Of a stretch of DNA of 64,000 nucleotides, positions 7,780 to 41,378 are shown piece after piece. How positions within the stretch are numbered: the first letter of the stretch is position 1; each line of letters begins with the position of its first letter. The notes under the pieces are model-generated. The model made no database searches, had not been told where the DNA came from, and saw only the letters and a list, made by a program, of their open reading frames with translations. Made by a program: the position numbers and the translations under genes. The DNA comes from Sipunculus nudus (taxonomy: Eukaryota > Annelida > Sipuncula > Golfingiida > Sipunculidae): assembly GCA_026874595.1 (NCBI GenBank), contig CM049308.1:17420001-17484000 (forward strand), written 5' to 3'.

Positions 7780-8350
7780 TAAGCCATACGGGGAATGCAC
7801 TGCAACGATCATCCATCATGTTGAGTTGATATCGTGATAAACAGCCGATAATCTTAACATTAAGCTAGGAGTGATGAATTAACACAGAATACATATGAAC
7901 TTACAAACCAACCAGAAAATCCTTAAGAGGAGTTATTTCCTGTAAGTTGGCTTCCGTCCATTTGACTGTGTTAGCCCTGCTTATATTGAAGCGGTCAAAA
8001 ATTCAACAAACACGCAGAGGAATTTACCAAAATGCTGAGTTAAAACGGGATTTTTCTAGCACCTGGTAGGTGTTGTTAGAAAGTAAACTGAAATACTGAC
8101 GATTGATCTGGTTTATGTCAAGTGACAGCGAACTCGCGGGCCATGAGGCTTTGTCAGAAATGACGAAAATAGTTGCATCCTCATACAGGCCTATGCTCCT
8201 CTAGGAGCAAAGAGGACTAAGTAAGCAAGTGAAGTCATATGGCCTTACATTGCGGTCTTTGATGCAACGTATAAAGCCTGATGCTTGTACCCTGGTCGTA
8301 AACTCGATCTCTGATGTCATGGGCCGAAATGGTGCTAGCATTTTACATGG
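7780..8350 (+). repeat. Dispersed repeat A, copy 1
   Basis: Shares ordered blocks with 17095-17515: AATTCAACAAAC, TCTGGTTTATGT, GCCATGAG(A)GC, TTGTCAGAAATGACG and GGGCCGAAATGGTGCT. The copies are diverged with no coding potential. Family unknown. Confidence 0.6.
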
Positions 8351-11845: not shown

Positions 11846-12118
11846 TTACATAGTGGGTGGTTCACACATGTAGCAGAAGTGCTTTACTATTCCCTTTTCG
11901 CAGCATTCACATCCAGTCGCTTCTTTCAGCGTGCTAGTCGAACATTTTACTTTGTTATTAACTAGAACAATTCCGGCCTTCTGGATTTTCTTTTTTTGGC
12001 ATAGCGTACCCTCTGGTGAGTCCTTGTATACTTTCGTCGTCTTTGCAGGATCGGCACACGCAGTCCCCGGGGCTGATGAATCCGGTGTAAACGTGGGATT
12101 CGCTATCACACAGTCACT
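11846..12118 (-). CDS. Exon 5: cysteine-rich C-terminal domain and stop
   Basis: Acceptor ttttttttcatgttacag followed by an open phase-0 frame of 90 residues ending ...CEPPTM and TAA. It has nine cysteines, a Pro/Ala-rich start, a basic KKKIQK stretch and a tight C-terminal cluster, CECC, eight residues, then CYMC. I do not recognise the domain. In the soluble isoform it would be extracellular and disulfide-bonded. Behind the alternative membrane helix it would be cytoplasmic, where the CxCC...CxxC cluster could bind metal. Nearest poly(A) signals on this strand are ATTAAA at 11387-11392 and AATAAA at 11248-11253. Confidence 0.75.
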   Translation of the reverse strand, partial: SDCVIANPTFTPDSSAPGTACADPAKTTKVYKDSPEGTLCQKKKIQKAGIVLVNNKVKCSTSTLKEATGCECCEKGIVKHFCYMCEPPTM

Positions 12119-15100: not shown

Positions 15101-18100
15101 AACAATCAAGAAAGTAAACTGAAGTCCAAATGCACAAAATCCAGGAGAAAGTCTGACAAAAATCTATAACTGCCGCACTCATCGGATAAGGCCCCAGAAA
15201 CTCACACACGCTTCTGCGTCCGCTAGAAATCTTCTCTGCTGCTCTCTCGGCTCTAAAACACAGTCCCTTTATATACATTTTCACCTCAAGCCGAAAAGCC
15301 TCTATTTCTCGAACATTCAAAGAATCTAACACAACACAGTAAGCACGCGTTACAGGAATCATCTAGAAGAACATCGCTGTGTGTCTCTACACACCAGTGT
15401 CCATACGTGACTCACTCACGATCGGGCGAGAAAGCCCAAGGCTAGCATGACAACGAGAGTTCAACCAGTACGGATTAAACTGAGATTGTAACAAACGGCC
15501 CGGCGAGAGTGTCACAACAGGAGTTACGCCCGTGTCACACAATAAAAAGAGCATACTAATTTCTCATCAAAGATATGATTCGATGGTAATTTCTCATTTA
15601 AGATATGATTTGGTGCTAATTTCTCATTTAAGATTTGGTTTGATGCTAATTTCTCATTAAAGATAAGATTTGATGACAGGTTCTCATTAAAGATTTGATA
15701 TGATGATAATTTTTATATTTATTATATGATTTGGTGCTAATTTCTCATCTAAGGATTAATATGATGCTAATTTCTTATTTAAGATATATTATGATGCTAA
15801 TTTTTCATAAAATATATGATGTGATGCTAATTTCTCGTTAAAGATATGACTCGATGCTAATTTCTCATTAAAGATAAGATTTGATGATAGGTTCTCATTA
15901 AAGATATAATATGATGCTAATTTCTCATTTCAGATTTTATATGATGCCAATTCCGCATTAAAGATATGATTTGATGCTAATTTCTCAATTAAGATATGAT
16001 TTGATGCTAATTTCTCACTAAAGATAAGATTTTATGCTAATTTCTCGTTAAAATTTTGATTTGATTCTCCTAGTATGACTATAGATTTTTCATTGTCAGA
16101 TGATGATAATCAACATAAACATTAAGAACACCACTGACGGCTTACATTTCCTCACCTATACTAAGCTGTATGGATATAGTTTTCTTGACAGGCCTTATAT
16201 GATACCAGCGCTGTTGTCCAGTAGTAACCAGATGGCATTAACCTTAAATCTAAATCATTTCTGAAATGCAGCTAGTGATTGTAAAAAGTAATGATTTTTG
16301 CTCCTTGCTCCCTGCTAATTAGATATTTACATAACAAAAAAAGTGTTCAAACTGAATTGAGGTGTACATTTTTTATCAGAAAGCGATTCGCATGTCATAT
16401 GTGCGAAAGCATGAATGAATGGAATAAGTGCCGAATACATTTTTTTACCGTTTTCCATAGTCCTAACGAAGTATATGATGAACACAGCTTTGAATCAACA
16501 ACGTGGGGAGCTGAGCGGATTCAAGAATCGAATTCAAAATACGCATTAAAGTAGTGGTTGTTCGCAGGCGTGATGTGGCGGATCCAGAGGCCTTTTTTTT
16601 TTTTCTTGAGCCGATAAAACCCTTTTCAGGGTTTCAAACCAAATTTGGCGACCTGCACCCCCTCCATTCCGGACCAGAGGACTTCGTGTTAGGTTTTATT
16701 TAGTCTTCCTCTTTTGGACCCTCCCCTTTCCAAAATACTGGAGTGTCCGTGAGTGTGTTGATTACCTCAAGCTGAAAGAATAAAAGTTAAAGTTCCGGTG
16801 TAAATACCAAAAGTTCTTAACTTGAGAAGATATTTTGATCTATGGATCAGACCAAACAGTTTTTCCAAATACCATTAGCTGGACAGAAATTTCTCAAAAC
16901 AAAATATATGACCAAGACTGAAATAACTTCCTTCATATGATTCGGATGATGCCATTCGGCGATGTTAGAGAAATGCTCAAGCTGCTGAAAGAAGTTCTTA
17001 GCTTGTCACTTCCACAGAAACCATTTGTGCTACTGACAGATGAAGCCGGCATTCATATTGGACTGATAAGCCTACTTGAGTTGTGACATTTGTCATACGA
17101 GGAAGTGCAATGCAACGGTCACCCATCCTACTGCATCGATAATTTAATATCAGGCTACCACTGACGAATACGCACAACCCAACAGAGGTGAAGGTCGACT
17201 AGTATTGTCCTTTGCTTGTATTCATGCTTTAGAAATTCAACAAACATTCATGCGTGTTTATCAATATGCTCAGTTACGACGGAATTGTTTTGCACATGGT
17301 TGGTGTGGATAAAAAGGAAAAAAAAACTTAGGTAGCGATTGGTCTGGTTTATGTTAAGTCCAAACGTACCTCTACGCCATGAAGCGTTGTCAAAATTACG
17401 AAAATATTCGAATCCTTATCACACCTTACAGTGTGATTCTTGGCTAAACTTAACATTTTGACACCTTGATAGACTCTCCTATATCAGAGGGCCGAAATGG
17501 TGCTCTAAACTTCTTTCTGTATGCGAGAGTTATGTAAAAAACTGCAACACTTCGGGGCCTACTTTTTTTATCTTAACCACGGTGCTGAAGCCCCCTTTTC
17601 TTGGATCCTTTATTCGCGTAATAATCAATAATTTGCTTGGTGATTATGTCAACCACATTGACAACATATATTATAATTATAACGCACGTTATAATTTGGA
17701 TGAACGTAAATAAAATTACAATCTGACTTAACAGAACGTAATTCAATGTTCAATTTTACACACGTTGAATTACAGTTAGGGGTCCTATGCAAATGTATCG
17801 GACCTATAGGAGATGCAGATGTACTTAAACGATGCACTGAACAGGAACTTGATCATACAACCTTGGTAAACGACGGTAGGCAAGACAAAAGCGCTCGATG
17901 TTCCGACAGCTCAGCGGCATTAAGTACTTGGACTGATTGTGTGAACTCACAACTTTAGATGGCATCATTTACAAGAGTATGACAGTTGACCTATCCATGA
18001 ACTCTATTTGACCATAATTTCATATTAATTTAATGAATAATCATAAGCATTGGACTAATGAGCAACCAATCAGGTGACCGTAAACATTGTTAAGCGTTGA

Positions 18101-21100
18101 TAAAAACAAAATTTGCATAACAAAATACGTGTAGTCTGTACCAAAGCCCATGCCGGCAAGTTTTCCGGGATATTTTTTTTATACAAAGGAGACAGTATTA
18201 AAAGTTCTAAAGGTTAAAGGTTGCAGGAGTCATTCCTCCGGCTGCTAAGTGGATAATAAAGGCTTACCTTGAACGTTATTTGTGTGAGACAAATAATCAA
18301 AAATATGGCAAGACAGTTCACAATGACTGCAAAAATAGTAACAGATACTGAAAATAGAGAACAGCGATTCCAGTTGATGACGTCAGTCAATACGACATAC
18401 GTCATCAACCTTTGAGACCAGGGTCGCATCCCTCCTAAAATCTGTTCAACAAATTTTTATGGGGCACCCAATTTCGTAAAATGTCAGTACGTGCTCGAAA
18501 CCTTTTGCAAAATAAGCTAAAAAATTGTATTTGTAAGGCTCCGGTCCTAAATTAAACTGTTTCAATTTAGTCACAGTATAGGATGACACCCTCTAGTAGA
18601 GCTCTATTATAGACCAAACGAATTCCTCATCGAAGCTGCTGCTTATGCATAGCTCATGTCGTGTTATGCATGGGGCACGACAGTCCTGGCGGTTAGCCAA
18701 TAATTACCAATTCTGGGATCCTTTCAGGTTACGTTAGGTGTGGTCTCCAAACCCCTAAATTAAAGAAGGCCCGATGAGCGGCAGGGTCAGGAGTTACACC
18801 TTAACGGGAACACGACGAATCCCAGGTGGCCCAGATCGATCAGGAATGGTTGAAAATGTAGAAGTCTCATTCAGTTTTTATTTTAGCTTTTAATAATTTA
18901 AGTGAGGAGACCTCGTGACGGTCCGGGCTGTTCAGGTGTGTCCTATATAGGGCTGAGGAATTGCGCATCCTGTTTGTCATTTAAGAAAAATGTATACGGA
19001 GATTTTAATCAAAATTGAATGGCCTAAATTAAGGAACCCGTTTCAGCCAGGAATTTCCTGTAAAGCGCGCGCCAAATGAAATGTTTAAAAATGTAGAAGT
19101 CTCACTTGATTTTATTTTAGCCTAGAAATTTCCAATGAGGCACAAGAGGCTCGAAAATGATAAAGTCACGTGTTTTACGAAACGTAAATATTAAGTAAAT
19201 AGTGAGTGATCCAAAGGGGCCCGGGCCCATCAGGCTTTTTCTATGTAAAAACACACCAGTAAATACTTGAACATGAGAAAATCACCTTTGGTTGTTAGTT
19301 AACTTGCTTTTATATAGCTGTCACCAAGACGGCCCAAAGGGGCCCGGCTAAATGCTTGTTAATGAGAAACTTTTTTTTTTCGGTGCTAGATTTTAGTTTT
19401 AATAGGAAGTGATCAAAAGGGCCTATGGTGACTCGGGTCCATGGGCTTCCAAGGGCACATGAACAGGCTTGACGATGAAGTCTCAAATTTAAGTTTCTCA
19501 TTTTTCTTTAATAGCATGAGCTATTCTACATAGGTTTTAACCCGTCGGATACAAACGGCTTGGATTGGCCAAGAGTTCTTGAGGCCCTTTAGAATGCATG
19601 GAAATGTAGAAAGTCCTGAGTAATGGTGCATAATGGTTACGGTATACAACAGAATACTAAATCTTATTCAGGACAACAGATCCGTACATGGAAGAATTTA
19701 ATAAAAAATTAATATTTATTTTCTTTAATTTTATGGTCCAGAGGGCCATGGAAAGCGTACACTTTTTTCCGGAATTTCATGCCGTTTGTTTTCAATGTAT
19801 TCTCTAACTCTGTTTATCTGTTTAAAGAATAGATCAGGTATAAAATGTAGGTTAGTTGCTTTTGTTAATTGTTCGTGTATATAATTATTCAAGGTACTGT
19901 ATTTATTTATTGATAAATGATAAGTATAAAACAATTCAGGGGAGAGACCTCTCACTTTTTGTTTTAATTTATCTGGGTGCTTTTCTTTGTGTGTGCAGTG
20001 GTTTGGGGGGGGGGGGGTCTCTTTCATTTTTTTATAAATCCCGGGCTCCATATATATGCATGCATACTATATATATCTTGTCGATTATCAACTTATCAGG
20101 AACCAATAGTTTCCTATTATTGTGACAGACTAGAAATGGATGTGTTCAAAATATTAAATATTAAAATTCATACGAGCAAATATAGGAGTAGTCTTATTTA
20201 TTATGAAACTTTTTTATCATACATGGCGAATATCCTAAGAAAGGAAACAAAAATTTGATAGTTCCTTCGATCTGTTTGGTGGAACATGATGCAAAGCTGA
20301 TATATTTAAACCGTGAGCTATTGTGTATCAAAAAGAATACGTTTTTCGCAGAATCACAGTAGTCATGGATACAGCTTCCACTGCTGATCTATACTAACAC
20401 CTGTCAAAGTATGTAACCATCTGACGCATCTGAACTCGCCTTAGCTCCGGCACTATATTAACTATTAAACCCCTTAATATGTTCCTGTAAATATTTTTTT
20501 TATTCTTTCAAGTTTCGTTTCAATTGGCTTTTTTTTGTGATAGTATTGATGTTGATAGTAAATATAGCATGAGAAGCACATTTTGTAGTGTGATTAACCT
20601 CCTGTAGGTCGCTTGTCTTGAGGTTATAGCTAGGGATGCCTGCATGCTAAGACCTCCGTGTATGATGTTTTTTTGTTCAGTTTTGCAAGGTGGATAAAGT
20701 ATATACATGAAAATATAAGTAACATTACATGGATAAAACTTTGCATCCCTCTGTTACAGTCCATTCTTTAGTATCGATAACTAAATAAGTCCTGGATTTT
20801 AAACGAATAGAGAGTTTATTACAACCATAAAACTGAATGGTTATTATAAAGAAGAAAAGGGTGGGTACCGGAATCCTTTTGTACCACCTCGGAGGCCCTG
20901 CCTAAAGTCTCATTCAAAGGGTTAACATATTATCTCCAAATATATTTACTACATATATAAAAATATATATTTTCTTCTCAATCATCACTGATTTTGAATT
21001 AATCTTAAGGCCCCTCCCCCCAAAAAAGTTTTTTCTCAGGCACTTTTTTTTATACATCAGTTAGGGTGGGTACGGTGGCTGATTTAGGACACAGAAAAAA

Positions 21101-24100
21101 AATATTTATCTCGAGATCTCGAGATAACACCTCGAAGTCTCAATAATAAAATTTCGCAAAAAAAAATTTTAGGAAGCAAAAAAAAAATATCTCGCAAAAA
21201 AATTTAGGAGGCGAAAAAAATAGGAAGCAAAATAAATTTCTCGCATAAAAAAATTTAGGGGGGGGGGGGTTGCTTCAGCCCCTAAAATTCTATAAATTAG
21301 GCAGGTGAATAACGATTTTAAGACAAAAGCAGAGCATTTTGCTGAAGAAAATCATGATGAGAGATAATCGAAATATTGAAACCGTTTATTTATGTATATA
21401 AAACAATTATGAAGATAGGTTGACTAAGTTTATCTGAGCTATAGGTATAGCTATAGGGGATCAGGCTGGGGCTTTAGGGGCTGAAGCACCCCCCCCCCCC
21501 CCCCCCCTACCCGCGTAACTACCCGAAAACACAATAATCATTTTTAGCATGTTAACATTTATGATGGTCATATACATATTCCAAAAAACAACACACCATT
21601 TCAATAAAAACAAAAGGCTATGTCATCATCCTTACGGATATGAATAATTAAATATGGAATTTATATTGAACTTTTCTTCAACTTGCCTTATCTTGGGAGA
21701 TATACAAACTTAATTGATTTTAAATGAATTATATTGTATTACCGTTCAGTTTAACACAGTATACATGGTCTTTGTTTTATAAAAGCAATAGTTTGCACTC
21801 TTAACGTATACTGTCCCCTTTAACGTTGCTTTGCTTTATGTCAATTCAGCTTCGAATGGTTCGTACAAGTGTGAAATTTTATCTCGAGATCTCGAGATAA
21901 TATATATATATATATATATATTTGCTTCCTAAATTTTTTTTGCGAGATATATTTTTTTTGCTTCCTAATTTTTTTTTTGCTTTTTAAATTAATTTTTTTG
22001 CTTCCTAAAATATTTTTTGCTTCCTAAATTTTTTTTAGCGATATATTTTTTTTGCTTCCTAAATATTTTTTGCGAAATTTTATGTCGAGATCTAGATAAA
22101 TATTTTTTTTGTGTCCTCAATCAGCCACCGTAGGCGGGCAAATTAAAAAAATCTTTTTGTATAAAAATATATTGTGATCATGCAGTTTGAAACAATTAAG
22201 CAACATTTGACCTTTGACTCTGGATAGGTTGCTTGTGGATTCTTGATCAAAAGTTTAAGCCACTCAGAGCCACTTAGACTTACTTCTTCACACAATCTCA
22301 GAGAGGGTTTATAGGCAACATTGATACATTGTAGCTGGGGCGAAATTACCTGTTGCAACTGGGGGGGGGGGCTTCCATTCAGCCAATCACACACACACTT
22401 TCTATCCACGGGGTGGTGGGGGGGGGGCTCGTATATAGATTATAGAGCAACTACGTTCGTAAGCCTAGAATGCTCAGACGTTTTGCGGTCATAGCTGATC
22501 ATATAAGGTTGTTTGAAATGCCTAAACCGAGTTTAAAAATATGGACAGAAATATTTGCGAAACCATTTTGTCTTTGGGGCAGACTTATCTCCGTTTTGGA
22601 TTGTTACGTATTGACATGAAAGCGGACCGAACTGTCTCGCTAGTGGAGCTTGATTTTCTAGCGAAGCGATTAGAACATCGGACTTGTGCGCCACCGACAT
22701 GGGTTCGTTTCCGGATAGGCCCAATATTTTCCCCTGAGCAACTTCGTAACCGTATGTTTGGCAGCAATATGCAGAAAATGTCACATATACACCGTACAAT
22801 GCTGCTTTAAATTGTGTTTCAAGAGCTTTGGAAAGCTTAAGCTTTACACATTTTTGGGCTCAACTGGTCAGGAAATGTTTGAAAACACACCCTGAAGGGT
22901 TGGCTGTTGTTGTTTAAACGACTAGGAGAGGACTTTACATGGCCGAACCGCTCTGAACACATTTTGCATTTTCCATGAAATGTATATAATTTAGACCATG
23001 AGACGCTTACCTTGGGAACTGTGTAAGGCAATGTAACAGTCGCGGTCTCTTGGGGTGTGTCACCTGTAACACATATAAAGATTAACGTAAGTAAATATTA
23101 CAAATGGTATATTAAAGGACTACTATATAAACGTTTCAGTAAGTAACACATTGGTCTGTAAACAGATTATGAAAATACCTAACAGATTAAATTAAAAAGT
23201 TTTGAAGGCTGATATTGGTTCCGCAAACAAACAGTTGCCTTTGCAGTGTTATTCATGATAGATTATGGTAATGCAGGAATTTCTCCTGATTAACTGGGTT
23301 CTTTGAGCAATGGACACTTATCAATACCAAAACATTGACTGGCATACCAAACCGGTCAAAACCGCGTAAAACCGTCCCTCTTCGTTACCAAATACCTCCA
23401 AAATAGTTGCAGCTATCATCAAGTGCTTTTACGTCAATTAATGTGCAAAAACAATTATTTAGAGACTTTCTCTATGTTTCAGGGAAATGATTTTCCTTTT
23501 TTATAACTTTGGGAAAATTTCCTGTTTTTACACCATGGTAATTAAGTACTTGGTTTGTAACTGATTATTCCTAGAATGACAACAGCTATCAGTACCAAAT
23601 TACACGTATAAATTGAGCATGTGTATGTTACGGGTGTTACCTGGTGCTACCGGAACTGCGTAGTAAGTAGCTCCACTTTGTTTATACTGTTACTTCCAAC
23701 CAGCGAAAGGGGAAACTTTTGCGGAGTGACTCACAAAAAATATCCCTAAGCTGTCTGGTTTGCAAGAGAAATTAAGGCTTAAAATACAGGATGTATTTGA
23801 CACTGCCTAACTCAATAATAATATTAACTAACTCAATAAGCTTCATTGTGCACCAATTTAGACTTAACTTTGTAATGTTTTGCATTGATTAATTTGCACT
23901 TGCAAAGCTCTGGCTAATCTGACTTGCCGCCAGACGCCCTTGTTGAATTTGCTTTATTTTAGCGGGCGCCATATATTATAAACACGTTGATATAAACAAA
24001 ACAAGCAGCCTGTGTGCGGTGATATCAACGTTTTCTGGCCACTTTTTTTTATAAAAGCTGCAAGGGATTATCTTTAGTTAATAAAGGTCAGATAGGTGAT

Positions 24101-27100
24101 TGGGCCCTTTTAAGAACATGTTTCTCACAATGTAAATTTCAGAATTGCCTTTCATATTTTTTCTTAAATGAGTGCAATGGAAAAAGAACACTCTCACTTT
24201 TAAGGTCTTATTTATAAAATAAAATCATTATTTTTTACTCAATAAAAAAAACACTAAATTTTTTTTAAATATTAAAAAATATTTTCATGGCAGTTTTTTT
24301 TTATATACAAGTTGTAAGAAACAATCAGATATTTAAAGGTTGTATAACATATACTTTCTGAAAAATTAATAATTTAAATAAATTAGAAAAAAATATTTAA
24401 AACATATTATGTGACAAAGGCCTTTTGTAATTTCTGTTGTAAGTCTTGTCATTGTTGTAACTTATTTTGTGAATTGGTATAAACACAGACAGGACGATAT
24501 AATTTAGTGTCTTTATGTAAAGCAGTGATAACTCACTTGTGAATTGATCTTGTAGGTTTGCACCAGCGCCCATCGGCCCCAGTATATAACTGAGATAGGG
24601 ATAGACACTGACGACCACGCTGCATTTGCCCGTCGCACAGTCGGGAGAATTCCGAATAAGGATGCCAGCCAGCCGGCCTTCCTTGATCACGGGAGCTCCG
24701 CAGTCACCAAAACACGTGCCTTGACCTTGTGTGCTTTGACCATGCAGCATACAAATCTTTTTCACGTCATCGGTTATAACGTCTGGAAACGATTGTCCAC
24801 AGCATGTGGAACTTCCACCCCAAGCCGCTTCCAATATTTGTAACTTGTCAGGAGTAGTGGTGAGCGACGTCATTCCCCATGAAACTATTGTTGATGATTC
24901 TCCGACAGCGGGCACTTGTTTTTTTCGACATGGGAGCTTTATCGGCTCACATGTAGTCATTTCTTCATTTGTGATGAGTATGCCGATGCCAGTATTTTTT
25001 ATAGTTCTAACCACCTTCACACCTCCGCCATCATCGGTTTTTGATGGACCAACTTGCAATCTAAAATGAAATGAATACAGGTTATATTTAAACGTGAAGT
25101 TGACACCGATTTGTGCAGTTGTAGGCCTAAAAGAAACTGTGCAGCTGCAAATGTTAATGCTTTGTACAAGTCACAGACTGTTTTATGTCTCGATGAGTAA
25201 ATAATTGCATTTAATGGATTACTCAATCAAGGCTATATATACATGCTCTAGTATGAGTATTTTATATTGATGGTTTCTGTAATAATAATATATTATTTGT
25301 AATATTCTCGTTATATAATCTTGGATAATATTAATATCAGATTATTCAATAAAATATGAGAGATCCTCGACTTCAATTTAGATTTTTTACTTAAAGACTA
25401 TATTGTTAGGCATATATACACGCTGTGGTAAACTGCTATACATAATTATGGTGTATATATAAACATTTAACAATAAATTACTTAATTAGCGCAAAGTTTC
25501 TGGTAAAAGTGACCTCATTTTACACTGACTGGTGTTCAATTCATTACATGTTTAGGCAGTTGTACAATTTCATTCAAGTATACCACGCATCTAATACTTA
25601 TAGATATAATTCGGTTCACGTTTGTTTGCAACGTTCTCTAAAACCGCGTTGTGTACAATACTGTGCCATACATCATTATAAAAACCTTATCCCCGCAGTG
25701 ACATAGACGATATGAGAATAAATTTTTAATGTACATATAATTTTGGTGGTTTTTCCTTTTTTACTGACTTGTAAAGAGGTTAGACCCAGCACAGCCGAAC
25801 TGCCTTCGGCAATGACCGGAATACGCGCATCGTGGTCACTCAACCTCCAACACTATTTAAGACTATTGTTTATATGAATAACGCTTGCTTTCTGTGAGGG
25901 ATTTGAAGCTCTCTGGCCTTACATTTGAGCGAGGCTCTCACCAACGTGCGTGGTCAGTAAAAGAGAAAAACACATGTTTCTCGCTTTATGAAATGGAGAG
26001 TTCAACCCAGTGGGATTAATGAAAAAACCTAATTCAAGGTCCCAATTTCAGGAACAGGGGTGGGTTGGAGTGGTGGCGGTGGTTTCAGGCCTCAAAATTT
26101 GTCTGATAGGCCTACCATGAAAAAAAAAAAGGTTGCGGTGGCTGAAAATGGGAAACGGACCCTCTGCATGGAGTCCCGTTAGGTCCGCTTCTGGTACTTA
26201 TACGAGGTATGCTTATTTCTGTTTCTTTCTTCAGGAACAGTTTCCTTGAAACGTACATTTATTAAATCTTTCATGTCTTGTTCTGTTATTAAAACCTTTT
26301 GAGTCTTACTCTGCCTGGCGATTTAAAAATTACAGTATATAAACTGTCCATAAATGTATTTCGATATGCTGTTATGCAATACAGATATTGATATACTCTC
26401 AGAGGGAGTAAAGTAGGGACCTGAAAATCTGAGAAACAAAACAATTTACAGTCCTCTCTTAGTGGGCACCTCCATGCATAAAGTGGGCACGTCTATAAAG
26501 TGGGCACTTGTAGACAGTCCCATTTTTTCTTCTCTTTATAATGTTTAGCTAATGTGGGAATCTCTATATTCTGTGAAGTAGATACTTTTCCTCAGCTAAT
26601 GTGAGCACTTCATCGAATTTCCCAGTTGAAGTTTGTTCCTATGAAAACTTTCAGAGCTTTATTTATTGTGAATTTGCAACTTTTATCAAGTAGAATAATT
26701 GTTAATTATAAACTATTTAAACTTCAACTACCAGCGATTAATACTAAAACAGATAAACATAGGTCAGAGTTTATTAGTCTAATTACATAATCATAATAAT
26801 AGCCTTCTTGGCTCAAGGCTAAACAATGGATACATACATACTAATTATGGTTGTTCTGGGGATGGTTTATAGCCAGCAGTGAATGCATCACTCAGTAGCC
26901 ATTCATATCAGACTGACAGCCATACTTTGACCTGGCAGTCACTAGACTTTCTTATGTAAGGGAAGCATATAAACTTATAGTTAATACCGTGAGTGGACAC
27001 CTGTTCATTCATCCAATTACTTGGCACTCTGAGATGCGTAACAGGGTCAGGTCCCCCTGGCCAAGTGCAATGTTTACTTGGCAGTTCAACTTTAATAATG

Positions 27101-33100: not shown

Positions 33101-36100
33101 GCAGATGAACAGATGGACACTGTGCAAACATGGTTACAGGTGGCGCCACCATTTTTTGTGTATGTTATAAAGCAATCCAAGGGCTACATTTGTATCAATT
33201 TTATTTCCTGATCGGTCAAACGGTTCCCGAGATATGAGGGTTTATGAGTGGAAACAGACCCACAAATGGACACTGGATAGAGAGGAAAGGTCAGAGGTCA
33301 ATGCAAATTGGTTAGGCACCAGTTCACATGTGACCCGATAATAGGTGTAAGTTTGGGAAAAATCGGTCCATTAGTCTCCGAGGAGCTCTCTGGAAACGAA
33401 CGCCGCAGCGGCGGAGGAACTCGGTCAAAAACATAGTATCCGCAAAACTTCGTTTTGGCGGATACAAAAATACAGGTGGCTCCACCAGTCTGCAGAAACT
33501 AATAAAAACATCTAATGGTCAATATCCATGCAAAAATCATGGTGATCTCTGCATTAGTTGTTCAGATACTTCAGTTTTTGTATCAAATTGTCCATTATTC
33601 TGAGGGATACTTCGGAGTCCTATAGCTTGAAGGATATGGGTAACAGAGACCTAATTTCAAGTTTCCACAGGCACCTTTCATGGGCCTCCTTGCATGACAA
33701 GAATGAAGATTCTAGGTCCAGTTGTTGCGATTTGTACCCTGTTGACAGATAACCACATCTTTAAAGGTCTCAAAAAAAAGAAAAAATTCGTAAAAATTTG
33801 AAAAAAAAATATAGGTGGCACACCCAGTCTGCAGAAACTGATGGAACAGCTCATGATCAATATGTATGCCAAAAATCATGACCATCAGTGTTGTAGTTAT
33901 TGAAATACTGCAGTTTTTGTATCAAATTTTCCATTATTTGGGGGGGGGGGGGGTATTTTGGACCCATACAGCTTAAAGAATATGGGTAACAGAGACCTAA
34001 TTTCAAGTTTCCATGGAGACTTATCATGGGTCTCCCTGTGTGTCAAGAACGAAGATTCTAGGTCCAGTCGTTACGATTTGTACCCTGTTGACAGATAACT
34101 ACATCCTTAAAGGTCTCAAAAATGGAGAAAACAATTCGTGAACATTGAAAAATACAGGTGGCGCCACCAGTCTGCACAAACTGATGAAACATCTCATGAT
34201 CAATATGTATGTCGAAAATCATGACCATCAGTGATGTAGTTAATGAGATATTGAAGTTTTTGTATGAAATTTTTGACTATTCTGGGGGGTAATTTTGGGC
34301 CCCATAGCTCGAAGGATATGGGTAACAGAGACCTAATTTCTGGTTTCCATGGAGACTTTTCATAGGTCTCTCAGTGTGTCGAAAATGAAGATTCTAGGTC
34401 CAGTCGTTACGATTTGTGCCACGCTAACAGATGACAGCATCCTCAAAGGTCTCAAAAATAGAGGAAAAAATCGTAAAAAATCAAACAGTACAGGTGGCGC
34501 CACCAGTCTGCAGGAACTGATCGAACATCTCATGATCAATATGTATGCCAAAAATGAAGACCATCAGTGATGTAGTTATTGAGATATTGAAGTTTTTGTA
34601 TGAAATCTTTTACTATTCTGGGGGGTACTTTGGGGCCCCATAGCTCAAAGGATATGGGTAACAGAGACCTAATTTCTGGTTTCCAAGGAGATTTTTCATG
34701 GACCTGTCAGTGTGTCAAGAATTAAGATTCTAAGTCCAGTCTTTATGATTTGTGCCTTGTTAACAGATGTTCACATTTTTAAAGGTCTCAAAAATAGAGA
34801 AAAAAATTCGTAAAAAATCGAAAAATACAGGTGGCGCCACCAGTCTGCAGGAAGTGATGTAACATCTCATGATCAATATGTATTCCAAAAATCATGACCA
34901 TCAGTCAAGTAGTTAATGAGATATTGAAGTTTTTGTATGAAATTTTTGACTTTTCTGGGGGGTACTTTGGGGCCACATAGCTCGAAGGATATGGGTAACA
35001 GAGACCTAATTTCTGGTTTCCTAGGAGATTTTTTATGGACCTCTCAGAATCCCAAGTTACAAGGTTCTAGGTCCAGCGGTTACGATTTGTGCCTGGTTAA
35101 CGGACGGACAGACGGACAGACGGACAGACGGACAAAGAGTGATCGCCATAGCTCAGATGACTTTCAGTCAGCTGAGCTAAAAACGCACGTAATTTCCAAA
35201 ATATAGGTTACAGTGACCTTATTTTTTGTATCGAGAGAGATTTACCAAGGATCTATCAGGGTATCAAGTAAAAGGTTTCTTTGTAAACGTTTACGATTTG
35301 TGCCTTGTTAAGGACGGAAGAACGGGCAGACCGCCGGATGGACCACTGACAAAGGGTAATCACTATTGCTCAGATGACCTATGGATCCGGTATCGGCCAT
35401 GAGAAATTACTTGATTTTGCATATTGCCATGTAAAACTCTATGTGTTCGAATTCATATTCGTGAAATAAGCCGAGTAATCATATAAATGCCTTATGGATG
35501 TTCCTTTGGTCAATCCAGCTCTCTCAGAATATACCGATTTACATGTTAAAGGTGAATATAAGATACTAGAATTTTGCATTCAGAGATCGCAGACCTCTGT
35601 CAAGGCAGCTCGTTATTCCCCTTATGGCATTGTCAGAAATGTAGCATTTTTCCTTTAAAAAAATCATTAATCCAAATGGTGATCAGGATTACACCAACAA
35701 CTTAATCATTTGTTCCTTGTTTCATTGCCGAGCTATCCTTAAAAGATTTCCATTAAAATCCGTCAATAACTTTTTTGAGTAATGTTGTTAACAGACTAAC
35801 AGACAAACTAACAAAAAAAACAAACATACCAACGCCGGCAAAAACTATGACGAAGGTGAAGGTTGTCAAAAGAGGTGTAGTTTAACAAATAAGGAAATAG
35901 ACAAGAAAGCGTGGATTGTCATCATAAATGAAAATAATGCGGTTACATAGGAATAAAATGCGAACATTTCTATGATAGGAAATGATCCGTAGACCCGCCC
36001 TTGAGATTTGTTTACACATAAATAACTCAAATGAGTACTTAAAGGACTGGTATTACTTACTTTATGTTTGCTGGACTGTCAGTGGCCACGCACGCTCCAC

Positions 36101-39100
36101 ACGTGAGCACCACCTTTTTTCCTATACACACGCCGCTGCACGAAGTAAGTCCGTTTTCAATATAAGCCATGTGATTCGCATACATTCCAGTTGGATACTC
36201 AGCCCCTATGGGTAAAAAAGAACAGATGCAAGATTATTAACTTGGTAATAAAACGATATGACACAGGACAAAATTTAAACCAGCAGAATCATAACATCAA
36301 CGATTAAATGCACATACTCTGAAACGTGGCAATGTTATAAATATCCCTCACAATATATGATAACAGGGTAGGCAAGTTTTGTTTTTTTTTTTTTTGATTT
36401 TTTACACTCAAGTTATTAACATCATTAATTAACGTCAATTTACGTCATATCAAAACATGTTTTTACACCCTTGTGCATATAAAATACTGTATGAAACCTA
36501 TGTTTGCTCTGAAATGAACAGGTTCAGCTGAACAACAGTATCTAGTAATGATCAATTTGGTATCTCAATCCTACACTTATAATATGTCAAATGGACAATA
36601 TGCTTGACAGTCAGGTGAATGTCCAGCCTGCAATTTGGTTCATGGTTTCCTTCCCAGCTAGCCACTGGCTTGCGCTCTTCAATCAAGGATGAATGGCAGT
36701 CCCCTTGTCTTTTATGGTACTCTACTGGCTATACGCTAAAGTTCTCAAAGGGATGGGTCGTCTTTATTACATCATCCTCAGCCATCAAATGTTATTTACT
36801 TTTTGACAGGCTACACGGCCACTTAAGCACCCTAAATGCCAGCAAAATGCTGTTTAGGGGAAACACTGCTGAGAGTCCAACGGAGGGTGTGATGGAGGAT
36901 GACGTCAGAACTTTAAATCCAATGGACATTTGCATCATGAATGGTTTGGTTAAATTGTAGCCCAGCTGTTTTTTTAAAGTAGCCCAACTAGACACAAGAA
37001 AGCTTTCGAATATGTATCATGGGGCTCTGAGAGGAAAATCGCAAATGGTATCACTTTGCATCAACATTTATGCAGAAAATGATTTTACTGATTGTTTACA
37101 TCTCTCTTAGATTAAAAAATAAATTTAATTTTTATTTTCAGTCGAACTCAACAATTTTGATCATCTTTGGGGCTAACCAAAGTTGTCGTAATTTGGGGGT
37201 GGTCATTTTGAAATTCTAAGTTACATGAATCATATATTCGGGACCAGGCAAGGTGGTCGTAATTTTTTGGATGGTCGCACTTGTGGGATGGTCGCAAGCC
37301 GGGGTTCACTTTATATCATATATAACAGGATATGCGTTAATATTTTTTAAAATTATTGTGAGTATATAAGAATGAATTTTAGTTATTTTCAATACTTGTC
37401 AGTTTTTTATGTTAATAACATTTTTTAACAGTTATTTACAAGTTTTTACAGCGTAATGTAACAAAATAGGTTTTGACCGTGAAAAAAAAAAACATTTTTA
37501 CATTGTAACATTTAACATTAATCTCGGAACTGTTAGGGGTCTTCTTTTGCTTAAACTATATATGAGGGCGGTTGCTTGCTTCTCTTTGAATAGAGCCTGA
37601 TATACTTCACGTCACAGGTAACCAGTAGGTCACCAGTGGTTCAAGTGTCTTTTTTTAACAAGCTGTAATTATGCATCAAAGACTTCAGCACATCTTAGTT
37701 TCATCCCGGTACTTTATCAGAAACTCTCATGCTATAAAGGTATGAGTAACATGCTGTTTCGTGTAGTTAACATTGGGTACATTCAGTACAATTAATTCTA
37801 AGCCGAGAAATGTATTTTAAAGATTTATATTGGATTTTGGACATAAGTTTTATGGCTATATCCATTAAGTCATTTCACTTAATCAGAAAATAATCTGACC
37901 ACATTAAGATTGGTGTAAAAGTACTGAATATCCACTGACCGTACCAACGTTATATTTTTTAAGGGGCTTTCGCTGTATATAAGTGTTTGATGACTATTTA
38001 GATACCTTTCAGATGGAAAGATTAAATTCTTTTAGATGGCAGGACCTTGGGCCATGTACTTCAGAGCTAATCAAGGTTTAAACCCTGACAGAAAAAAAAG
38101 CTCAAAGAGCATCAAACAACATGATCGTAGCTGCATGCAGGTGACGATTCTCACTGCACGTGACGCTTCTCACTGCACGTAACGATTGTCACTACACGTG
38201 ATGATTCTCACTTCACGTGTTGCCACTGTGCAAGTAATGCAGGTTGTAAATTAAAAAGAAATAAAACGTGTTGTGTTGTATGTTATTCTCATTCGTATTA
38301 AAGCCAGCTGTTCGCCTACCTTAAAACCAACGGGATTCTGGCTCACTCTGGTTATTCATTGATGTACTGCCGGTAATTTCTGTTAAGAACAGTTTTTATA
38401 ATGCCCTTCTGATGGGTGTATAGTTTATCTACAAAATGGGGACAATTACACAGCTAGGACCCGCAGCTGCGATGCACCGTATCCAGACGCCTGGTCAATC
38501 GTGTGCTACTGGGCTGCCACGTAGTCCGATGCCACGTAGTCCGATGCCGAAATGGAAATTTGTTACTGTACGTGCTTATTTAAACTAGGATTTGAAAAAG
38601 GGGGAGGTTACATACACGAAATAGGCCTGTACTTCCCTGATATTAATTTAGTATACTTTATGGATCTACCTATGAGATTCGTCAAATTTTATTTTTGCAC
38701 AGAATTGTTAATCTTTACTCCGCAGTGACTGTGCTTTTGTTTAGAAAATAACAACCTGAAATCATTCAGGTAACATTCAACTACTACCACTACGACTACT
38801 TGCCGTGTGGATTCCGAATATAGGGAACACACATATTGAAAAACTAATAGCTAGAGAGTTTTACCCAGATTATATCACTTGAAGCAGCTAACAGGGGTTG
38901 ATTTAGACGGAGCTCATTGGGCGCGCGGCCCCTCTTTTGACAAACAAAATCTTGATTACAGAAAAATACACACTTACCACCGAAAAACAGCGGCGGATTA
39001 TATTCCCAGCTTTGCATGCGAGAGTTATGTGTTAAATTTGCTAGCACACTCCGAACACTTATTTACGTATGCAAGGCTGCTAAGCTCCATCCCACCCATT

Positions 39101-41378
39101 CCCGGCCCGCCTCCCAACCCATTTTTTTCCGATTCTGTATCCAAACCTAACTGAGGACGAGTATCTTTCAACTGAAGACCTAAAAAGGTACTACCAGTCC
39201 ATTCCTAGGCCTGTGCTTTAGCATCCATGTACATGTCAGCTAAGGCCCTCTGGCCTTTCCAAAGCCCAGACGGCACCAAACGATCAAGTCCGGCTAAGGG
39301 CACTCAAACGTTCGAATTCCTCCCATGTGTGTTCCACATGAACAGGCATTTCACCAACTCGGCTTACACTGGCGGCGCAGTGATACATTGTACAAAATAT
39401 TTTTCTACATCTCAGTTACAGCTTCGTTATTTGCATCATCCATGCCTCAATTAAATTATAGGCAAAGCAATTGGTAAGCCTATACCAGTGAGGCACAAGT
39501 TACAAGCACTCTGTAAAATGATGGTGTGCATACGTTTACTCCCATGTAACAGGCATTACACCAACTCGGCTTACACTGGCGGCGCAGAGATAAATTGTAC
39601 AAAATATTTTTCTACACCTTAGTTACAAGCTACATTATTTGCTTCTGCCATGCTCCAGTTAAATTAGAGGTCAGGTAAGTGTTAAACCTTCCATTGAGAC
39701 ACAGATTACAAGCACTCTCTGTAAAATGATGGTGAGCATGCAAGGACAAACATTTTTTAAAAGAATCATATGAGTAGCTTCTAATACACAAACGTGGGTG
39801 GTTGCTGTGGCGGGTAAACCATTTCCAATAATTTAAAACACGAAAATGTGCAGGTAGCTACAGAGCCCGCTTTGAACTTTCTGTTTTAGGCACTAGATGG
39901 CACTGTGCTAGGATTTCCATTATAAATGTGCCTGAAACCGTACCGGAGCCAGTCTGGAGAAGGGGTTTTAAAACTGGCTGATCCCTCATTAGCTTGACCC
40001 TAAGCAACATGTCGTTAATTTCTGGTTAGAAACTTGTTCTCATCGCTTCGTAACTTTAACTTTGCACTTGGATAATATGTTTCATTATCTTATTTGAACA
40101 AGAAAACAAGTAAGGTGTCGCAATTAAGGGATTGTTACCAAGACTATGTTTGCATATGTTGTCAAAGGAGAGTCAGTTATTACTCTTTAGGCAGGGCACC
40201 TACAGATATAATTATGTAATGGAGACTCCATTTGCAGAGACGGATACTGCGTCTAGGCTTCGCTATGTTGCTCCATTAATTAATTAATTACTTCCACTAT
40301 TGAAATAATCAGGTTATAACACCCGATGTATGATAGGATTTTAGATTGCCTTTATTAGGAACGATTTTTTAGAAAGCCATCTTGTATTTTCATTTCAACG
40401 ATCAGTACTAAATTTCTTATCATATATTCTTATCTTATTCTGATATTACATCATTTTTATAATTAATTTACATGTCTTCGTCTTTCTCAACCTCTTCGTA
40501 TCGGAATATTTACAAGGTGAGCTGCGGTGTGAGCACCGCCTTCATGCATAGTTATGGATAGTACTTGATATTTTGTTTAGGGACAATTATGATATCGGTG
40601 TCAGAAGATAAAGAATGCTACATTTAATTATTCTGAAGGTAAAATTTACCGTTAGCACTTTAGGCTGTAATTTGGGAAATTAGCTGGGACAATCATACCG
40701 GCCTGATCTGACAGCCGGTAGAACTGGATGCGAACACCCATACCAAGGGTAGGATAGAATTATTGCTGTGTAGTAGGATTTGACATCAGAGGCTTGTTAC
40801 ACAAAATGTGTAGGTTATTCAAGCTGTCATGACAGACGGAGAGACAAACTTTCCGAGTAAAACCAGCCTTGTTATTAATAACTGCTGCCTGTACACAGGG
40901 TGAATACAGGTTAGTCGACCGGGAATGTAAAATTTATTATTTTCCAAAACAGAATTACGTCAATATTTAATCTTACCTCGGGAAAATCACAGTTCGACAA
41001 GAAAATAAAAAAGTACGGTCAGAAATAGGCGTGAACATCTACTTATACTAGAATTGCTCCGAACCCTATATGTTGTACTGCCACCTCAACGTCTTCAGTT
41101 AAATAAAAAATCGACATTTGGGTGGCAGGCTGCCGGTGGGGGGGGGGGGGGGGGGTGGTGGTGTAGTTCTGGACAATTCAAACCAGCGCTATATCATTTA
41201 ATAAACACATTATATGTTCAAAAAACTTAAGTGGCTATATGTAACGTCTATACATCTCACAAATAAACAAAAACTTACCTCCAACAAGAAAATCTTCCTG
41301 CGCCCGTTTATTTCTTTGCAAAAGATCCCGGCCGCATACCGCATGGATGCACAACAGAGAAACGATCAGCAGCTTCAT
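11846..41378 (-). CDS. Serine protease homolog (S1 fold, dead triad), five-exon gene
   Basis: Coding exons, 5' to 3': 41279-41378, 36061-36205, 24537-25060, 23011-23063, 11846-12118. All junctions are GT-AG and keep phase, giving 364 residues. Order: signal peptide 1-16, furin-like RNKR 22-25, LVGG 31-34 (equivalent of IVGG at chymotrypsin 16-19), trypsin-like domain to about 245, linker, and a Cys-rich tail. The fold is shown by Cys56/Cys72 (C42/C58), SWG at 142-144 and CFGDCGAP at 198-205. The catalytic positions are Ala71 (His57), Gly106 (Asp102, by the GIGIL match to DIALL) and Cys202 (Ser195). The S1 base residue 189 is Gly196. Family knowledge: serine protease homologs act as binding or regulatory proteins, often in immunity or clotting. 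The actual role here is unknown. Proteolysis looks impossible without His. An alternative fourth exon lies at 18268-18347. Confidence 0.88.
12119..14574. other. Intronic sequence, no recognisable feature
   Basis: Part of the last intron of the minus-strand gene. Short frames only, and no repeat I could pair within the window. Confidence 0.5.
14575..16075. repeat. 30-bp minisatellite, interrupted by an LTR
   Basis: Units of 30 bp built on GATATGATTTGATGCTAATT plus TCTCATTAAA. About 5 decayed copies lie at 14575-14750 and about 17 at 15545-16075. The two blocks are separated by the LTR at 14754-15537, so the array predates that insertion. Confidence 0.85.
14754..15537 (-). mobile_element. Solo LTR related to the one at 53354-54363
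   Basis: On the minus strand it shares ordered blocks with 53354-54363: a TATA box (TATATAAAGGGACTGTG here), TTAGAGCCG, AGCGGAC, GTGGTGGTATCCAG, AATTGTATTGATTT, and the end GATCACG/GGTTCCGTAA. It may begin at TGTGACACGGG (15537). The U3 part differs from the other copy. No internal coding sequence is attached. Confidence 0.65.
16570..16750 (+). mobile_element. Decayed CGGATCC-type hAT-like repeat
   Basis: Starts GGCGGATCCAGAGGCC. Contains GGGTTTCAAACC, TTAGTCTTCCTCTTTTGGAC and a CCTCCCCTTTCC block, in the same order as the right half of 9494-9669. Confidence 0.45.
16836..17085 (+). pseudogene. Gypsy-type pol remnant: reverse transcriptase fused to RNase H start
   Basis: One frame from 16843 reads DQTKQFFQIPLAG, like the RT motif DLTKGYWQIPLA. 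It stops, and an adjacent frame reads IRMMPFG (RT motif RMPFGL), then within about 20 residues KPFVLLTDEAGIHIG, like the RNase H start PFVLQTDASDxGIG. The RT core between them is missing, so this is a deleted and frameshifted fossil. It lies in an intron of the minus-strand gene. Confidence 0.65.
17095..17515 (+). repeat. Dispersed repeat A, copy 2
   Basis: Diverged counterpart of 7780-8350, including GAAATTCAACAAAC, GGTCTGGTTTATGTTAAGT, GCCATGAAGCGTTGTCAAAA and GGGCCGAAATGGTGCT in the same order. Confidence 0.6.
18268..18347 (-). CDS. Exon 4B: candidate alternative transmembrane exon
   Basis: An 80-base stretch with acceptor gttctctattttcag and donor TTCAAG|gtaagc. Joined to exon 3 (phase 1), it reads 27 residues with about 22 continuous hydrophobic ones (FAVIVNCLAIFLIICL in the middle) and leaves in phase 0, matching the last exon. 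It is thus interchangeable with 23011-23063. Used together with it, the frame meets a stop after nine codons. I infer mutually exclusive use giving a single-pass membrane isoform of 373 residues. T-rich DNA often encodes hydrophobic peptides by chance, so transcript evidence is decisive. Confidence 0.45.
18770..19640. repeat. Degenerate tandem array with ATGTAGAAGTCTCA motif
   Basis: Recurring AAATGTAGAAGTCTCA-like words (about 18856, 19092, 19476, 19608, with weaker ones between), each followed by TTTTATTTTAG and then a GGGGCCCGG block. Units are about 105-130 bp and strongly decayed. Confidence 0.5.
19641..21063. other. Intronic sequence, no gene seen
   Basis: AT-rich, with a G run at about 20004-20017; nothing else recognised. 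Confidence 0.5.
21064..22140. mobile_element. Long terminal inverted repeat element, about 1.08 kb
   Basis: Left end 21064-21125 and right end 22085-22140 are inverted copies (TACGGTGGCTGAT, AGGACACA, ATATTTATCT, AGATCTCGA). Inside both arms are repeated TTTGCTTCCTAAATTTTTTT / GCGAGATAT words. A nested inverted pair (GCTTCAGCCCCTAAA near 21270 and TTTAGGGGCTGAAGC near 21475) is flanked by G and C runs. Non-coding; superfamily not identified. Confidence 0.7.
22605..22751 (+). mobile_element. tRNA-derived SINE, copy 1
   Basis: An A box-like TAGCGAAGCGAT (22659-22670) and B box GGGTTCGTTTCC (22701-22712) are about 42 bp apart with ATCGGACTTG between, as in tRNA. A second copy with matching flanks lies on the minus strand at 42872-43005. 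It cannot fold into a full tRNA acceptor stem. Confidence 0.65.
23011..23063 (-). CDS. Exon 4A: Thr/Pro-rich linker (soluble form)
   Basis: A 53-base exon with acceptor tatgtgttacag and donor CCCAAG|gtaagc. It accepts phase 1 from exon 3 and hands over phase 0 to the last exon. It encodes 18 residues (257-274), four of them Thr plus the codon-split Ser, and three Pro: a likely O-glycosylated hinge. Exon 18268-18347 has the same entry and exit phases and could replace it. Small exons are easy to mispredict; the support is the matching phase on both sides and two good splice sites. Confidence 0.68.
23064..24536. other. Intron 3, no feature
   Basis: Intron between exons 3 and 4A of the minus-strand gene. 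No repeat or coding segment recognised. Confidence 0.55.
24537..25060 (-). CDS. Exon 3: main protease-like domain, Ser195 to Cys
   Basis: Acceptor ttcattttag; donor ACAA|gtgagt. It encodes residues 82 to 256 and closes in phase 1. Visible landmarks: GIGIL (106-110) where DIALL carries Asp102; SWG (142-144); Cys168/169 and Cys185 for the 168-182 bridge; Cys198 and Cys223 for 191-220; CFGDCGAP with the oxyanion Gly200 and Asp201 retained but Cys202 at the nucleophile position; and SVVVSVYPYLSYI in place of the GVYTRVSSYIPWI end. After residue 245 a Gly/Ala/Gln-rich stretch leads out of the fold. The frame stays open past the donor to 24397, so intron retention would add an unrelated tail. Confidence 0.93.
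25061..28312. other. Intron 2, 3' third
   Basis: No gene. Near 26000-26190 there is a decayed relative of the GGTCC/AACCC hAT-like repeat. At 26460-26510 AGTGGGCAC occurs three times about 18 bp apart. Confidence 0.5.
28313..29322 (+). mobile_element. Pearl-like element with about 157-bp core repeat
   Basis: The 5' end is ACAAGTGACCCATGGGCCAT then GACGCTCAGC (28313-28342). The core contains about five units marked by ATAGGTCACxATGACC (near 28547, 28687, 28845, 28999, 29156; mean spacing about 155 bp). The 3' end has the GGACG/CCGGA-rich microsatellite relic (29266-29300) and TGATCGCTAGAGCT. The unit length is close to the roughly 160-bp cores of bivalve pearl elements. Confidence 0.72.
29323..31410. 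other. Intron 2, central part; possible LTR fragment
   Basis: No gene. The stretch 30240-31138 is less AT-rich and ends GGATGTGACA, inverted to TGTCACATCC, a typical LTR boundary; AATAAA occurs near that end on the minus strand. The other boundary was not found. Confidence 0.35.
31411..32111 (+). mobile_element. Pearl-like element with about 487-bp direct repeat
   Basis: The 5' end is ACAAGTGACCCATGGTTCAT then GACGTTCAGC (31411-31440). The words TCCTGAAGAACTG/TTCTGAAGAACTG (31491, 31978) and GGGTTGAGxGCAAACxTTTTG (about 31575, 32050) recur about 487 bp apart. It abuts another 5' terminus at 32112. Confidence 0.55.
32112..33465 (+). mobile_element. Pearl-like element with 280-bp core repeat and hairpin end
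   Basis: The 5' terminus has perfect TGACCCATGGGTCA at 32117-32130. About three 280-bp units follow: GGTGGCGCCACC at 32710, 32859, 32990 and 33139, spaced exactly 280 bp in two interleaved series, each with ATCGGTCAAACGGTTCCCGA. The segment closes in a hairpin at 33436-33465 (GTATCCGCAAAAC, TTC, then its complement). Confidence 0.65.
33466..35178 (+). mobile_element. Pearl-like tandem array, 338-bp units, with 3' end
   Basis: Five units with GGTGGCGCCACC-type motifs at 33475, 33814, 34157, 34493 and 34830 (339, 343, 336, 337 bp apart). Each unit holds a pearl-157-like half (GAGACCTAATTTCTGGTTTC, GATTCTAGGTCCAG, ACGATTTGTGCC) plus about 180 extra bp. It ends with a (GACGGACA)n tract at 35100-35134 and a hairpin at 35150-35178. 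Short frames inside are by-products of the repeat. Confidence 0.75.
35179..35385 (+). mobile_element. Single pearl-type unit with second 3' end
   Basis: One 157-type unit (AATATAGGTTACAGTGACC to TTACGATTTGTGCC) followed by a GGACGGA-rich tract and ATTGCTCAGATGACC. It repeats the 3' structure directly downstream of the previous copy. Confidence 0.6.
35386..36060. other. Intron 2, 5' end
   Basis: No feature recognised apart from the splice donor gtaagt next to exon 2. Confidence 0.5.
36061..36205 (-). CDS. Exon 2: N-terminal beta-barrel with lost His57
   Basis: Acceptor ttttttacccatag; donor ATAAA|gtaagt. The exon carries 145 bases: 2 completing Gly34, 47 codons, and 2 opening Lys82. It holds the segment that normally carries the catalytic histidine. 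Cys56 and Cys72 are 16 residues apart, exactly the C42-C58 spacing. The TAAHC motif reads TCGAC, so His57 is Ala71. Extra cysteines occur at 60 and 69. The loop to the next strand is short compared with trypsin. Confidence 0.9.
36206..38136. other. Intron 1, distal part; possible small MITE
   Basis: At 37139-37312 CAGTCGAACTC and an inverted GGGGTTCACTT bound a 174-bp GGTCGTAA-rich segment, possibly a MITE. A 113-codon frame at 36619-36960 has no recognised motif. Confidence 0.35.
38137..38232. repeat. 19-bp minisatellite built on CACGTG
   Basis: Four and a half units of about 19 bp, consensus CACGTGACGATTCTCACTG, so E-box words recur at 19-bp steps within intron 1. Confidence 0.8.
38233..39317. 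other. Intron 1, middle, no gene seen
   Basis: No repeat or coding segment recognised. Confidence 0.5.
39318..39748. repeat. Direct duplication, period about 207 bp
   Basis: Two copies sharing CACCAACTCGGCTTACACTG (39353, 39560), TTGTACAAAATATTTTTCTA and ACAAGCACTCT...GTAAAATGATGGTG, diverged by substitutions and small gaps. Confidence 0.85.
39749..41278. other. Intron 1, proximal part
   Basis: No gene; a G run at about 41138-41156. Confidence 0.5.
41279..41378 (-). CDS. Exon 1: signal peptide and propeptide
   Basis: Starts at the ATG whose A is 41378 (A at -3, a favourable context) and encodes 33 residues plus one base. Residues 1-16 form a typical signal peptide with a hydrophobic LLIVSLLCIHAV core; cleavage is likely after Gly16. 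Residues 22-25 (RNKR) fit the furin consensus R-X-K/R-R. The exon ends inside the LVGG motif, at donor GGAG|gtaagt. The residue before LVGG is Phe30, not Arg/Lys, so classical tryptic zymogen activation is not expected. Cleavage after Arg25 would leave five extra residues before LVGG. Confidence 0.87.

Follow-up and report, generated by a model that had tools for sequence, protein, structure and literature searches.

Gamma-tryptase and testisin are S1 proteases anchored in the membrane as type I proteins. Serine protease homologues, the catalytically dead members of S1A, share the trypsin fold with their catalytic residues replaced, and Gly is common at the Ser195 position in many of them. Homologous duplicated exons are usual, though not required, for mutually exclusive pairs, and the steric block imposed by a short intron is one of several mechanisms. 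Prostasin is a type I membrane-anchored S1 protease, and C-terminally anchored trypsin-fold proteins are already known (PMC4436870). The present study concerns a gene on the minus strand of a 64-kb window of Sipunculus nudus DNA (the whole stretch analysed, 64,000 nt; GenBank assembly GCA_026874595.1, contig CM049308.1, positions 17,420,001 to 17,484,000), in which a linker exon, 4a, might be exchanged for a candidate exon, 4b, that reads as a membrane helix. Positions below are those of the window.

The likeness to prostasin is the hydrophobic C-terminal anchor placed after a trypsin-fold domain (PMC4436870). In contrast to the membrane-anchored S1 proteases, the protein described here lacks His57 and Ser195, and its hydrophobic segment would come from an optional exon of its own, ahead of a 90-residue Cys-rich tail. 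It differs from serine protease homologues in having Cys in place of Ser195, within GDCGAP, and in carrying a Cys-rich tail that belongs to no Pfam family. In U2AF1, stop codons are present in transcripts that include both or neither of exons Ab and 3, and one of the alternative exons has a stem loop close to its branch points (PMC5224494). The 4a/4b pair resembles U2AF1 in both respects: stops arise with both exons or neither, and a hairpin is placed close to the likely branch point of one of them. However, the two exons of U2AF1 are homologous, being duplicates of a single domain, whereas 4a and 4b have no significant likeness. Tissue factor also gives soluble and membrane products from one gene by splicing; there one exon is left out, which alters the C-terminus, whereas here an internal linker would be swapped for a helix with the same tail kept. 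Dscam likewise has soluble and membrane-bound forms from one gene. Among the titles and abstract openings listed from the open-access literature, none describes this gene or a comparable switch in a protease homologue. Splicing that yields soluble and membrane forms is already known, and the interest of our locus is moderate to low unless the relocation of the tail or the gating by a hairpin holds.

Two interchangeable exons between exons 3 and 5

On its minus strand the window carries a coherent gene of five exons, with GT-AG splice sites, for a trypsin-fold domain and a Cys-rich tail. Exon 3 (24537..25060) exits in phase 1 through the donor ACA A/gtgagt at 24537, and the coding part of exon 5 with its stop (11846..12118) starts in phase 0. 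The gap of 12,418 nt between them holds both 4a and 4b. Exon 4a (23011..23063, 53 nt; cag/GTGACAC to CCCAAG/gtaagc) enters in phase 1, leaves in phase 0 and encodes the Thr/Pro linker SDTPQETATVTLPYTVPK, with an acceptor score of 3.17 and a donor score of 7.17. The candidate exon 4b (18268..18347, 80 nt; ttttcag/TATCTG to TTCAAG/gtaagc) has the same phases, an acceptor score of 5.04 and the same donor score of 7.17. Its reading, ISVTIFAVIVNCLAIFLIICLTQITFK, is membrane-helix-like and uncharged until the final Lys, and its best 19-residue hydropathy is 2.97. All five exons and 4b lie on the minus strand. An earlier note on this DNA had given the coordinates, lengths, phases and splice dinucleotides of 4a, 4b and exons 3 and 5, and had described 4b as a hydrophobic segment in the frame set by exon 3; recomputation returned the same values and the same reading.

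The four splice outcomes were computed. A transcript with 4a only encodes 364 aa and one with 4b only 373 aa. With neither, translation gives 257 aa and stops at nt 3-5 of exon 5. With both, it gives 283 aa, and the stop ends 30 nt into the 80-nt 4b, 50 nt before the junction of 4b with exon 5. Thus, the two exons are interchangeable in phase and together break the frame, as is expected of a mutually exclusive pair. The early stop on double inclusion (133 nt) had been predicted by the earlier note; the stop on double skipping, the 50-nt distance and a hairpin upstream of 4b had not been part of it.

The explanation we tentatively favor, at somewhat less than even confidence, is that 4b is a real alternative exon that would replace 4a in some tissue or stage. 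Unrelated to 4a in sequence, it would place a hydrophobic stretch of some 24 residues directly after the protease-like domain and so produce a type I membrane form, the 4a product being the secreted form. Exclusivity would be mainly frame-based, as both exons or neither lead to a stop. The use of 4b may further be held down by a hairpin in which its likely branch point is paired.

Candidate exon 4b exceeds chance

The intron between exons 3 and 5 was scanned for open exons of 30-200 nt entering in phase 1 and exiting in phase 0, with an acceptor score of at least 2 and a donor score of at least 4. Four rows were returned at two places. Exon 4b had a summed score of 12.21 with its full acceptor and 10.57 with an inner one at 18326; 4a had 10.34, or 7.25 when a later donor was used. 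By the same sum of acceptor and donor, the accepted exons 2 and 3 score 10.59 and 7.63, so that 4b outscores exons 2, 3 and 4a. With a looser prefilter applied to both strands and three phases of the whole window (again 30-200 nt), no other open candidate outside the known exons reached 11, the best being 10.53, which leaves 4b as the top-scoring open candidate of the window.

Randomized sequence seldom gave a comparable exon. A sum of at least 12.21 appeared in 1 of 300 dinucleotide shuffles of the intron, none of them with a hydropathy of at least 1.6, and 12.21 was matched in 1 of 400 permutations, by 30-nt blocks, of the intron minus 4a and 4b. The same block permutation of the whole window, exons kept in, gave 0.0146 per 12.4 kb. 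A frame-free control, combined with the share of open windows (2,745 of 12,417, or 0.22) and a phase share of one third, led by arithmetic to about 0.03 phase-compatible open pairs expected per 12.4-kb intron. Exon 4b therefore exceeds chance: the probability of such an exon in this intron is about 0.003 to 0.03, before allowing for its having been picked among several introns.

These figures bear directly on the possibility that 4b is a chance pseudo-exon, i.e., a T-rich open stretch that happens to be flanked by good splice-like sequences, never used or used as noise only. In its favor, frame-free pairs scoring at least 12.2 numbered one on the minus strand (4b itself) and two each on the plus strand, the reversed sequence and the complemented sequence, from which the expectation of about 0.03 in the intron follows. 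Hydrophobic readings are also common in this DNA. Among the 27,325 open 80-nt windows outside exons, a count that omits 3,298 windows overlapping exons, 2,049 reach a hydropathy of at least 1.6, 212 at least 2.5 and 36, in five 300-nt bins, at least 2.96. Since T-rich and AT-rich DNA readily yields such readings, the hydropathy of 4b is helpful but not decisive, and openness alone is weak evidence, two of the three frames of 4b being open. The excess is also to be read in the light of how it was obtained: the splice weights were generic animal splice-site frequencies rather than values fitted to this genome; the scan is incomplete, as the exon 2 donor (3.52) would fail its prefilter; and the chance tests, like the hairpin filter described below, were devised after the feature had been seen. 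On the other side stand the absence of any other open candidate reaching 11 outside the known exons, the rarity of a match in permuted introns and the coincidence of 4b with a stable, G/C-containing hairpin that is unique for its size in the window. We regard a pseudo-exon as possible, if doubtful, and a real alternative exon as likelier than any single rival.

As a separate observation, the strongest frame-free splice pair in the window (14.16) lies at 11904-12015 on the plus strand, antisense to exon 5, and may be read either as a warning about chance pairs or as a trace of antisense transcription.

A repeat origin of 4b was considered and rejected, as no repeat in the window overlaps it. 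The window holds no second copy of 4b. The one match of the segment 17000-19600 to another part of the window, at 7978-8184, comes from 17213-17419, and a small local repeat (18845-18887 and 19080-19121) lies clear of the exon. The lack of a second copy also speaks against 4b being an exon of a nested gene or mobile element that is not spliced to the protease gene. Its open reading somewhat resembles the first helix of a receptor, though this is an impression only, and remains of mobile elements do occur in the window. However, the 79-residue open frame has no Pfam match, and the interval from 4b to exon 5 offers one weak candidate entering in phase 0 (17478-17425, sum 6.86). Such an origin is very improbable.

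The 4b acceptor is preceded, 25 nt upstream, by a hairpin of 11 perfect pairs (18373..18409, minus strand; GTTGATGACGT...ACGTCATCAAC). The fold z-score of the 110 nt before the acceptor is -3.84 for 4b, against 0.92 for 4a, 0.41 for exon 5, 1.62 for exon 3 and 0.63 for exon 2. Hairpins with at least 10 perfect pairs, a loop of 3-20 nt and at least 4 G/C in the arm occur once in the window, namely here, by a filter on arm length and G/C content that was picked post hoc (12-bp arms gave none with at least 4 G/C, and arms of 10 and 11 bp were then counted). A branch-point-like CTGAC, recognized by eye from the consensus, has its A at 18383, 36 nt before 4b, and overlaps the start of the 3′ arm. 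We infer that the hairpin could gate 4b through this branch point. A small nucleolar RNA over the hairpin was considered and rejected: the Rfam match in 17500-19000 reached 18.4 bits (cut-off 38, E 0.84) and was judged a chance effect of the stem.

Long-range inverted pairs of the docking/selector type were also sought. Among the 25 listed of 33, 20 have both arms inside one A/T-rich element at 21.1-22.1 kb. A 24-nt pair (79%) links 20487-20510 with the T-rich stretch that precedes the acceptor of exon 5 (12120-12143). Another, of 20 nt (90%), links 18161-18180, about 90 nt past the 4b donor, with the A/T-rich element; both consist mostly of A/T runs. The element itself (21071-22132, between 4a and 4b) is inverted, with arms of up to 64 nt about 790 nt apart and outer ends TACGGTGGCTGAT and ATCAGCCACCGTA, and resembles a small transposon.

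Objections to an exclusive membrane exon

Several properties of the pair and of its product weigh against the favored explanation. The intron between 4a and 4b is 4,663 nt long and not of the very short kind; steric exclusion of one exon by the other is therefore unlikely. Nor are the two exons evident duplicates of each other. Their local alignment shows no significant likeness, the observed score being reached by 59 of 500 shuffles for DNA and 241 of 500 for protein, and blastn of the two regions with 300-nt flanks gave a best piece of only E 0.054. A duplicate origin was rejected on these shuffle-level scores, and the pair, judged by its sequences, differs from the common duplicated-exon kind. 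The earlier note had drawn attention to the AAG/gtaagc ending common to both exons. The ends are indeed identical, and CAAGGTAAGC occurs at just these two places in the window, but the donor is an ordinary consensus that adds little, and it was set aside as evidence for a pair.

The frame logic is also less strict than the earlier note supposed. Junction-dependent decay follows, in vertebrates, a rule of 50-55 nt. The stop produced by double inclusion lies at this limit and is borderline for such decay, so that the stop predicted by that note stands while the enforcement of exclusive use through it is uncertain. The stop produced by double skipping seems to sit in the last exon. Faulty transcripts may therefore escape removal, and both wrong-frame outcomes could yield stable short proteins.

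The same distances bear on a second reading, in which 4b is a poison exon that, joined after 4a, adds a stop and lowers output via decay or truncation, with no membrane product. The stop 30 nt into 4b is what such an exon would provide, and strong splice sites and a hairpin covering the likely branch point are features one might expect if the exon were regulated. However, a stop just 50 nt before the last junction is borderline for decay, and a poison exon needs neither an open phase-1 frame nor a membrane helix. We consider it unlikely.

The main biological objection to a real membrane exon concerns topology. The type I arrangement is a tentative reading: the start looks signal-like by eye, and the putative later helix in 4b has a hydropathy maximum of 2.97. 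Disulphides are normally not formed in the cytosol. With 4b in place of 4a, the nine-Cys tail would come after the helix and hence be cytosolic. Either the tail tolerates the cytosol, or the 4b transcript ends differently, or 4b is noncoding.

The second of these ways out corresponds to a further alternative that counts against the exon swap, in which 4b starts an alternative last exon. Its donor would be unused, and translation would continue through 17 more residues (VSLYYPLSSRRNDSCNL) before a stop. The resulting membrane form would lack the Cys-rich tail and have just a short cytosolic end, which removes the topology problem. The frame is indeed open to 18217, with TAA at 18216-18214; ATTAAA at 18034 lies about 180 nt past the stop, an ordinary distance, and AATAAA lies at 17614. 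Nevertheless, poly(A)-like hexamers are common in AT-rich DNA, and the 4b donor AAG/gtaagc scores 7.17, equal to that of 4a. We hold such an ending quite improbable. Considering these points together with the preceding evidence, the role of a mutually exclusive membrane anchor is a plausible one for the candidate 4b.

The pseudoprotease and its locus

The coding part of exon 1 (41279..41378) begins with MKLLIVSLLCIHAVCG, which by eye looks like a signal peptide, and ends with DFLVG plus one base in phase 1 (donor score 7.57), leading into LVGG; exon 1 matches no Pfam family. Exon 2 (36061..36205) encodes the first barrel of the trypsin fold and has VLTCGAC at the VLTAAHC position, His57 being replaced by Ala; alone, it matches Pfam Trypsin weakly and below threshold (E 0.047). 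Exon 3 encodes the second half, with GDCGAP at the GDSGGP position (Ser195 to Cys), and its match to Pfam Trypsin (E 8.6e-11, 42.5 bits, curated cut-off 20.6) places the protein in the S1 (trypsin) fold. Exon 5 supplies the 90-residue tail with its nine Cys, of which residues 1-89 match no Pfam family. In viral and prokaryotic contig collections exon 3 gave pattern matches (1 and 39 stretches) and no tblastn relative, a search that is uninformative on conservation among animals.

The 4a product, from the joined exons, aligns with chymotrypsin 1eq9 across residues 31-241. This alignment again has Ala at His57 and Cys at Ser195, so that the active S1 triad of His57, Asp102 and Ser195 is incomplete; at the Asp102 position two alignments place different residues. 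Since His57 and Ser195 are lost, the designation of the predicted product as a pseudoprotease, already proposed by the earlier note, is well supported as regards classical activity. The Cys replacing Ser195 might take part in a disulphide: of the 24 Cys in the 4a product, 22, an even number, lie outside the first 16 residues.

Other features of the window include tandem arrays in the intron between exons 2 and 3 (32395-35101; units of about 280 and 336 nt, both consensuses containing GGTGGCGCCACC) and degenerate 30-nt tandem repeats in the intron before exon 5 (14575-16065, with 17 copies at 15556-16065). On the minus strand, 54833-55228 holds a fragment of an integrase core domain (Pfam rve, E 3.6e-9), likely a retroelement remnant.

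In its fullest form, the proposal is a secreted/membrane switch by unrelated internal exons, in which the same Cys-rich tail would move between the outside and the cytosol under the gate of a hairpin hiding the branch point. We think it unlikely that all of this holds together. At present, the exon is a well-formed candidate, no more. If the switch is real, it would offer a compact test case in which unrelated exons are made exclusive by frame and branch-point structure. It would be unusual for an internal exon swap to move a Cys-rich domain across the membrane. Furthermore, a single gene would then supply a dead protease in two roles, one as a soluble factor and the other as a receptor or decoy tethered to the membrane.

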